Positions 3,665 through 38,533 of a DNA stretch of 60,166 nucleotides are shown in pieces. This DNA is from a bacterium (GTDB taxonomy: Bacteria > Bacillota > Clostridia > Lachnospirales > Lachnospiraceae): positions 1 to 60,166 of the forward strand of contig JAUNJY010000026.1 of assembly GCA_030535455.1 (NCBI GenBank), given 5' to 3'. The notes beneath the pieces are model-generated. The model saw only the letters and a list, made by a program, of their open reading frames with translations. It did not search any database and was not told the DNA's origin. How positions within the stretch are numbered: the stretch's first letter is position 1; every line of letters starts with the position of its first letter. A program made the translations under genes and the position numbers.

Positions 3665-3695
3665 TGCTCTGCAAATTGACTCGCAGAGCAATTTT
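3665..3695 (+). terminator. Probable terminator after the nth-exonuclease operon
   Basis: Stem TGCTCTGC/GCAGAGCA of 8 bp with a 10-nt loop, followed by ATTTTG. The T tract is short, so it is probable rather than certain. Confidence 0.6.
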
Positions 3696-3736
3696 GTATA
3701 CTTTATAAGAAATTGTATTGCAATCCCCTGTAAAGT

Positions 3737-3765
3737 AAAAAAAGGCTTTCTAAAAGAAGAAAGCC
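3737..3765 (-). terminator. Rho-independent terminator, minus strand
   Basis: Read on the minus strand, GGCTTTC and GAAAGCC form a 7-bp stem followed by seven T. It lies downstream of the minus-strand gene at 3830-4447, with the structured element at 3771-3820 in between. Confidence 0.8.
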
Positions 3766-3770
3766 AAGAG

Positions 3771-3820
3771 GTGCACTCATCCGAAAGGAAGGTATCGCTG
3801 ACGTGACCAAGTTAGGTACG
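3771..3820. ncRNA. Putative structured RNA element, copy A
   Basis: About 50 nt that align with 38399-38448 without large gaps. Shared blocks are GCACTCA, a short GAAA-capped hairpin (TCC/GGA here), then GACCA(A/G)GTT and GG. The ends GTGC and GTAC can pair as RNA on the plus strand, with a G-U. I do not recognise a named family. Orientation is unsettled: the adjacent terminator favours the minus strand, the end pairing favours plus. Confidence 0.45.
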
Positions 3821-3829
3821 TTGTTCTGA

Positions 3830-38306: not shown

Positions 38307-38315
38307 GACCCTTGG

Positions 38316-38348
38316 AGGTTGTCCAATTTCATTGGACAACCTTTTTTT
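38316..38348 (+). terminator. Terminator of the importer operon
   Basis: AGGTTGTCCAAT and ATTGGACAACCT form a perfect 12-bp stem followed by seven T. Confidence 0.92.
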
Positions 38349-38382
38349 AATTTAATGGCAATATGCCATTAAATTAAAAAAA
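38342..38382. repeat. Perfect 19-bp palindrome overlapping the terminator T tract
   Basis: The arm at 38342-38360 (seven T, then AATTTAATGGCA) is the exact complement of 38364-38382, with a 3-base centre. The T tract of the terminator forms one arm. The right half begins the direct repeat described next. Confidence 0.7.
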
Positions 38383-38409
38383 ACGCTCCGCTAAGGATGC
38401 GCACTCACC
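38357..38409. repeat. Direct repeat, copy 1
   Basis: This 53-base stretch (GGCAATATGCC through GCGCACTCACC) recurs at 38482-38533 with only one A fewer. It includes a poly-A run, the imperfect hairpin CGCTCCGCTAAGGATGCG and the start of structured element B. Confidence 0.85.
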
Positions 38410-38448
38410 TGAAAAGGTAGATGTCGTTTGCACGACCAGGTTCGGCGC
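38399..38448. ncRNA. Putative structured RNA element, copy B
   Basis: Related to 3771-3820. Outer stem GCGC/GCGC (38399-38402 with 38445-38448), hairpin ACCT-GAAA-AGGT (38407-38418) and hairpin GTCG/CGAC (38423-38436) make a compact three-way fold. On the minus strand it is followed by a hairpin and a run of eight T, as copy A is. No known family recognised. Confidence 0.45.
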
Positions 38449-38481
38449 GGACAAAGTGTCATAGCCACTTTGAATGAGAAG

Positions 38482-38533
38482 GGCAATATGCCATTAAATT
38501 AAAAAAACGCTCCGCTAAGGATGCGCACTCACC
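38482..38533. repeat. Direct repeat, copy 2 (partial element)
   Basis: Second copy of the 53-base repeat, 125 bases downstream of the first. It stops at the CACTCACC block, so it contains the flanking hairpin but only the edge of the structured element. Between the copies, CAAAGTG/CACTTTG (38452-38472) forms a further hairpin. Confidence 0.85.

Follow-up and report, generated by a model that had tools for sequence, protein, structure and literature searches.

The 60,166 nt of Lachnospiraceae contig JAUNJY010000026.1 (GCA_030535455.1), hereafter the window, contain two copies, A and B, of a short repeat whose parts are listed in Table 1. Copy A is flanked by two convergent genes, one of exonuclease type (PF00929) and one without a Pfam match, and copy B by genes for a transporter permease (PF00528) and a glycoside hydrolase of family 28 (PF00295). 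Three clustered tRNA genes are recognized by Rfam on the plus strand at positions 90-350. The initial annotation had reported conserved blocks shared by the two places, and GCACTCA, C(C/T)GAAA, GACCA(A/G)GTT and GG are indeed present at both; the outer ends, which it described as able to pair, form helix P1 of the fold documented below. The extent that it gave, 3771-3820, is too small, the feature at A occupying approximately 3699-3824. A hairpin and T tract on the minus strand had also been noted as abutting both copies. At A this agrees with the terminator scan (3765-3744); the equivalent hairpin at B is absent from the terminator-scan list and visible by eye only, as a short, bulged stem (38401-38384) followed by eight T. 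In the same scan, the host hairpin that precedes copy A registers as a terminator only when read on the minus strand; on the plus strand it has a 10 nt loop and its T tract reads ATTTTGTA.

Table 1. Positions in the window of copies A and B, their parts and the adjoining host hairpins
Feature	Position	Strand	Basis
Host hairpin GCTCTGC/GCAGAGC with short T tract, immediately before copy A	3666..3698	+	Sequence; conserved in G001
Copy A, whole element, without H1	3699..3824	-	Bounds from empty orthologous site in G001
H4 palindrome of copy A, imperfect	3699..3737	.	Sequence; also picked up by H4 script
H3 hairpin (3744-3765) and T tract (3743-3737, minus strand) of copy A	3737..3765	-	Terminator scan
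Core of copy A (model R1)	3766..3821	-	cmsearch, 61.6 bits
Host terminator before copy B	38314..38348	+	Terminator scan, 14 pairs
H4 palindrome of copy B	38349..38375	.	Sequence; H4 script
H3 of copy B (38384-38401) and A-run 38376-38383 (minus-strand T tract)	38376..38401	-	Sequence
Core of copy B (model R1)	38394..38450	-	cmsearch, 75.6 bits
H1 hairpin of copy B (CAAAGTG/CACTTTG)	38452..38472	+	Sequence
Truncated second unit in tandem with copy B (part of H4, A-run, H3, core edge)	38482..38533	-	Direct repeat of 38357-38409; 12.2 bits

On the strand designated R1, which is the minus strand at A and B, a full unit consists of an H1 hairpin, a 56-nt core, an H3 hairpin with a T tract and an H4 palindrome, usually followed by a host terminator. 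Read on strand S, the order is host stem and T tract, H4, A-run, H3, core and H1, often with a T tract behind it. The elements are about 125-190 bp in size; copy A is without H1, and behind copy B stands a second unit that is truncated. In places copies are arranged head to tail, in arrays of two or three, and the arrays at L226, L235 and L151 combine clearly different units or subfamilies, all in one orientation. H1 and H3 look like outward-facing terminator hairpins and, judged from their sequence, may function in termination. By eye, the layout is the same in many of 18 loci from other genera, and also in copies from genomes G249, G319, G130, G259, G112 and G322. In the source genome (G000), 17 of 113 cores overlap a crude ORF call, which counts against a purely intergenic repeat. 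At two loci (L158, L224), on the downstream side of the core as read on R1, H3 continues as a long, near-perfect inverted repeat in which part of the core edge is copied, as if by template switching. A second repeat family, which begins (T)CAGACTGTAGACAA directly after terminator-like hairpins, occurs in 13 distinct contexts (L006, L011, L137, L141, L155, L161, L220, L224, L229, L279, L295, L339, L395); several copies continue for ~200 nt, and the window has only two weak matches.

A 14-base pattern taken from A and B has 14 matches in G000, compared with one for the reversed pattern. A structure-aware model of the R1 core (56 nt), built from 11 copies including A and B, identified at least 131 matches in this genome (E<=0.001), a lower bound since 150 of 1,574 first-look candidates were scored. 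A covariance model built from the copies and a search of related genomes, as the initial annotation had proposed, yielded many further copies as well as covarying stems. The original observation is thus confirmed, and it understates the case, since A and B belong to a set of at least 131 copies. Within the window, the best matches after A and B are the truncated tandem unit at 12.2 bits and others below 10 bits. All four genomes available for the genus have matches, 131 in G000, 73 in G001, 45 in G003 and one in G002, as do, under stricter filters, 57 of the 299 genomes sampled across the family. A class-wide sample gave seven genomes out of 391, six of the same family, G000 included, and one (G430) of another family of the class. 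The two G430 loci (L426, L430) have related cores and flanking hairpins, without T tracts, and possibly represent a wider superfamily.

Locus L431, on a Roseburia sp. 831b plasmid, shows the element's layout and is assigned to the element from this layout, a BLAST match of 76.6% covering 35% of the query and a profile score of 7.6 bits; it is not listed by the R2 model at E<=0.01. From an exact-pattern scan of genome contigs, 80 of the 108 stretches found were run against the model, and strong cores were found in only two loci, both from isolate S3R_St_47, the next best among those 80 scoring 29 bits (E 1.1e-4). Two pattern scans of viral contigs returned no matches. Cores are present in MT837746.1, MT836815.1 and MT835487.1, the three records inspected of ten matching ones, which are unverified fecal 'bacteriophage' scaffolds and may be host DNA.

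Conservation of the core fold was evaluated with 88 loci, none used in model building, that provided 99 copies, 96 of them distinct. In a structure-fitted alignment, 95.1% of the cells in helices P1, P2 and P3 are paired and there are 166 both-side changes, versus 53 in shuffled alignments, and structures slid along the sequence as a control are 10-56% paired. A structure-blind alignment gave nearly the same values, 94.9% paired and 165 both-side changes, the largest of 500 shuffles having 69. Related copies inflate these counts, but the excess is nevertheless large, and compensatory change has preserved the minus-strand fold of the core. Copy A itself pairs poorly in P2. On this covariation evidence P1-P2-P3 replaces the GAAA-capped hairpin of the initial annotation, the bases of which belong to helix P2, where they pair with the GACCA(A/G)GTT block, and to an unpaired bulge. 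G.U pairs exceed A.C pairs by 194 to 36, or by 108 to 34 after removal of one near-constant G.U pair, which points to R1 as the folded strand. Of the 96 rows, 72 contain a tandem G-A motif (CGAA/TGAG or CGAG/CGAG).

The flanks of copy A are 89-90% identical to G001 on both sides, and the element, ~126 bp, is absent there, the site lying right after the host hairpin. When 122 G000 copies were compared with the fetched part of G001, 14 had flanks on both sides, of which one was shared. Twelve of these 14 site comparisons were inspected, and two, copy A and L269 (read by hand), are clean empty sites; no target duplication is visible at either. In three cases (L270, L272, L251) about 20-30 nt remain at the G001 site; in five (L145, L257, L279, L149, L136) the element is absent from G001, but there is no clean alignment between the flanks, and at the sites of B and L213, G001 has another or a truncated element. 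In G003, eight copies have identical cores and are near-identical throughout the element, with different flanks. Copies have therefore spread within genomes. A MITE mobilized by a DDE transposase would be expected to leave a target-site duplication, and none was seen at the two sites, copy A and L269.

The initial annotation had left a choice between a small RNA, a riboswitch and a mobile palindrome. The last of these fits; the varied flanks, the empty site and the lack of a suitable promoter do not support, as far as sequence can tell, a small RNA or riboswitch. A structured minus-strand RNA, small RNA or attenuator, ending at H3 would account for the covariation, for the wobble asymmetry that favours the minus strand and for a core followed by H3 with its T tract. 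Against it, the consensus promoter scan placed no promoter that would transcribe the core of A or B, its matches being two at A (minus- and plus-strand, in H4 and upstream of the element) and one at B, downstream of the element. Identical copies are found at unrelated places, and GNYA loops are common, whereas RNA loops of this type are usually GNRA. Nor does any Rfam family reach threshold, in agreement with the initial annotation, which had matched the element to no known family, and a known Rfam RNA was rejected on the same ground. With Rfam 15, only three tRNAs in the window reach the gathering threshold; the 18 loci of other genera yield one tRNA and, beside the element, one group II intron. 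When A, B and L373 were scanned permissively, all listed matches were sub-threshold, and many were to microRNA models at the H4 palindrome. We regard a structured minus-strand RNA as quite unlikely.

Recent copies have a single orientation and immediately follow an intrinsic terminator's T tract. A terminator on strand S is present within 210 nt upstream of the core for 23 of 24 G003 copies and 66 of 107 G000 copies, as against 89 of 1,500 random windows, a control not matched for intergenic position. In G249, G319 and G130 the element begins ~7-9 nt after the stem and T tract, as judged by eye, and the scripted distance to the TAGG motif is 4-22 nt, mostly 8-13. The upstream neighbouring genes in G000 are on the same strand in 90 of 103 cases, close to the baseline of ~86%, which, like the lower share of copies with a terminator in that genome, counts against the reading. 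In the complete genome G003, all 48 copies are consistent with one pair of replichore borders. As those borders were set after the copies had been seen, only the 38 copies located in arcs measured by GC skew were counted and the 10 in unresolved stretches were dropped; all 38 (35 arrays) are oriented with replication, with a chance of about 0.005 given 243 of 283 ORFs (86%) in sampled blocks that are partly masked in places. In three other complete genomes, 18 of 20 copies agree with the local GC skew and two are against it.

Hairpins close to both ends, the orientation linked to replication, a right end (e.g. CTTTTTCAT) that resembles the target (e.g. TTTTTTAT) and insertion without visible target duplication at copy A and L269, as in elements of IS200/IS605 type, are all consistent with an IS200/IS605 offshoot, a PATE or REP that is mobilized by a Y1 HUH transposase and inserts as a single strand beside a short T-rich target. 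The conserved fold is, however, on R1 and the lagging-strand template is S, a poor fit to a simple single-strand model. No mobilizing enzyme was found, a Y1 transposase and a reverse transcriptase each being undetected in some copy-rich genomes. The Y1 transposase (PF01797) is present in five of eight such genomes tested for it and undetected in G003, which is complete, G239 and G114. G000 has two intact Y1 genes and one broken, with no intact core near these loci, the sole core-like match there being a degenerate 14-bit piece in L304. The resident IS200-type transposases were accordingly rejected as the only mover, and descent from an IS200/IS605 element is possible but doubtful. Among the matches listed for a full-length profile, which was run over 683 kb of G001 plus 400 kb of G003, no gene-carrying version, or pair of ends around a gene, was recognized. 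At L304:2320-2432, there are two degenerate core-like pieces in opposite orientations, a few hundred bases from an IS200-like gene.

Group IIC introns insert behind intrinsic terminators in one orientation, and a retro-mobile RNA that used machinery of the group II intron type would explain the same type of target here; three RVT_1 matches in G003 point in this direction. RVT_1 (PF00078) is, however, undetected in G000 (93.6% complete), G239 and G114, and no intron domain was found in the element, the only Intron_gpII match, in L195, being beside it. A retro-mobile RNA is thus highly unlikely, and a group II intron as such was rejected, with no RVT_1 in these three genomes and no Intron_gpII match inside the element in the scanned loci. 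The L195 match (Rfam, L195:25-98) adjoins the core at L195:156-210 and is apparently in or beside the H4 palindrome.

A script recovered H4 as a paired hairpin from 57 of the 113 G000 copies; these have 47 different arm pairs and 96% self-pairing, a value that is high because the script retains only paired hairpins. When that selection is removed (72 of 113 copies, 66 distinct), own arms score 0.653 and cross-paired arms 0.590, a small excess, with 0.653 also the largest of 2,000 shuffles. In total, 58 matches from G003, G249 and G319 were parsed for arm comparison, with a parser that favours paired arms. Recent copies in G003 and G249 have a nearly constant inner arm; the host side is variable, centred on T5, A or G, T, and has 0-3 mismatches to that arm. 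In G319, the arms vary between loci and mostly match each other. The site of copy B in the sister genome G001 has a different palindrome. From this pattern we infer pairing between element and target, with later correction of the palindrome. Alternatively, the arms may match because replication corrects imperfect palindromes after insertion, and not through any reading of the target. This alternative, for which we see about even chances, is favoured by arms that in G319 are locus-specific yet matched, together with the almost single inner arm of the recent G003 and G249 copies and its few mismatches, but it leaves the choice of T tracts for insertion unexplained.

Short palindromic mobile repeats (REP, PATE, RUP) are a known kind. 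REP, BIME and REPIN sequences, associated with RAYT transposases, are likewise short, non-coding, intergenic, palindromic, present in many copies and arrayed, whereas the element described here has a four-part layout and a fixed place after terminators, with no Y1 transposase detected in three of eight copy-rich genomes. PATEs and other non-autonomous derivatives of IS200/IS605 share the hairpin ends, the absence of a visible target duplication and the replication-linked orientation; they differ from the element in its conserved, bulged core, and no parent IS with matching ends was recognized near the Y1 genes of G000 or in the scanned parts of G001 and G003. With group IIC introns it has in common the terminator target and the single orientation, but neither a ribozyme domain nor a reverse transcriptase gene was seen in its 125-190 bp or so. 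BOX, RUP and Correia elements are similarly modular, non-coding, mobile and intergenic. We know of no terminator-linked, replication-linked placement for these. A title-level search of literature outside subscription journals and preprints found no description of it. The element is apparently unnamed, its apparently new features being its terminator-linked place, its replication-linked orientation and the absence of a shared Y1 or reverse transcriptase enzyme.

Taken together, A and B are probably copies of a non-autonomous mobile element that lands behind the T tracts of terminators and is present in this genus as well as many other genera of the family. The target would be the terminator stem and T tract, probably single-stranded during replication. 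The A-run beside H4 may act like a guide by pairing with the target, T5 followed by A or G and a further T, and an enzyme presumably recognizes the folded core. As H1 is itself terminator-like, new copies could land behind it and so form arrays, and an element that lands after transcript ends with terminators of its own would do little harm. It is a bolder, and to us unlikely, proposition that these are a new class of minimal mobile element that needs no resident Y1 transposase or reverse transcriptase, pairs its A-run with the terminator T tract during replication and has its guide arm rewritten at each site by palindrome correction. If the guide arm is so rewritten, the element would be retargeted.

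Whatever the mover, a repeat that reaches 45 to 131 copies in each of three genomes from the genus, and has matches in 57 of the 299 genomes sampled from the family, has seemingly gone without a name. If truly aimed at intrinsic terminators, it would constitute a natural system for low-harm intergenic landing, in which DNA insertion is tied to the ends of transcripts and to the direction of replication. Its spread would add terminator-like hairpins behind many genes and may alter transcriptional read-through across these genomes.
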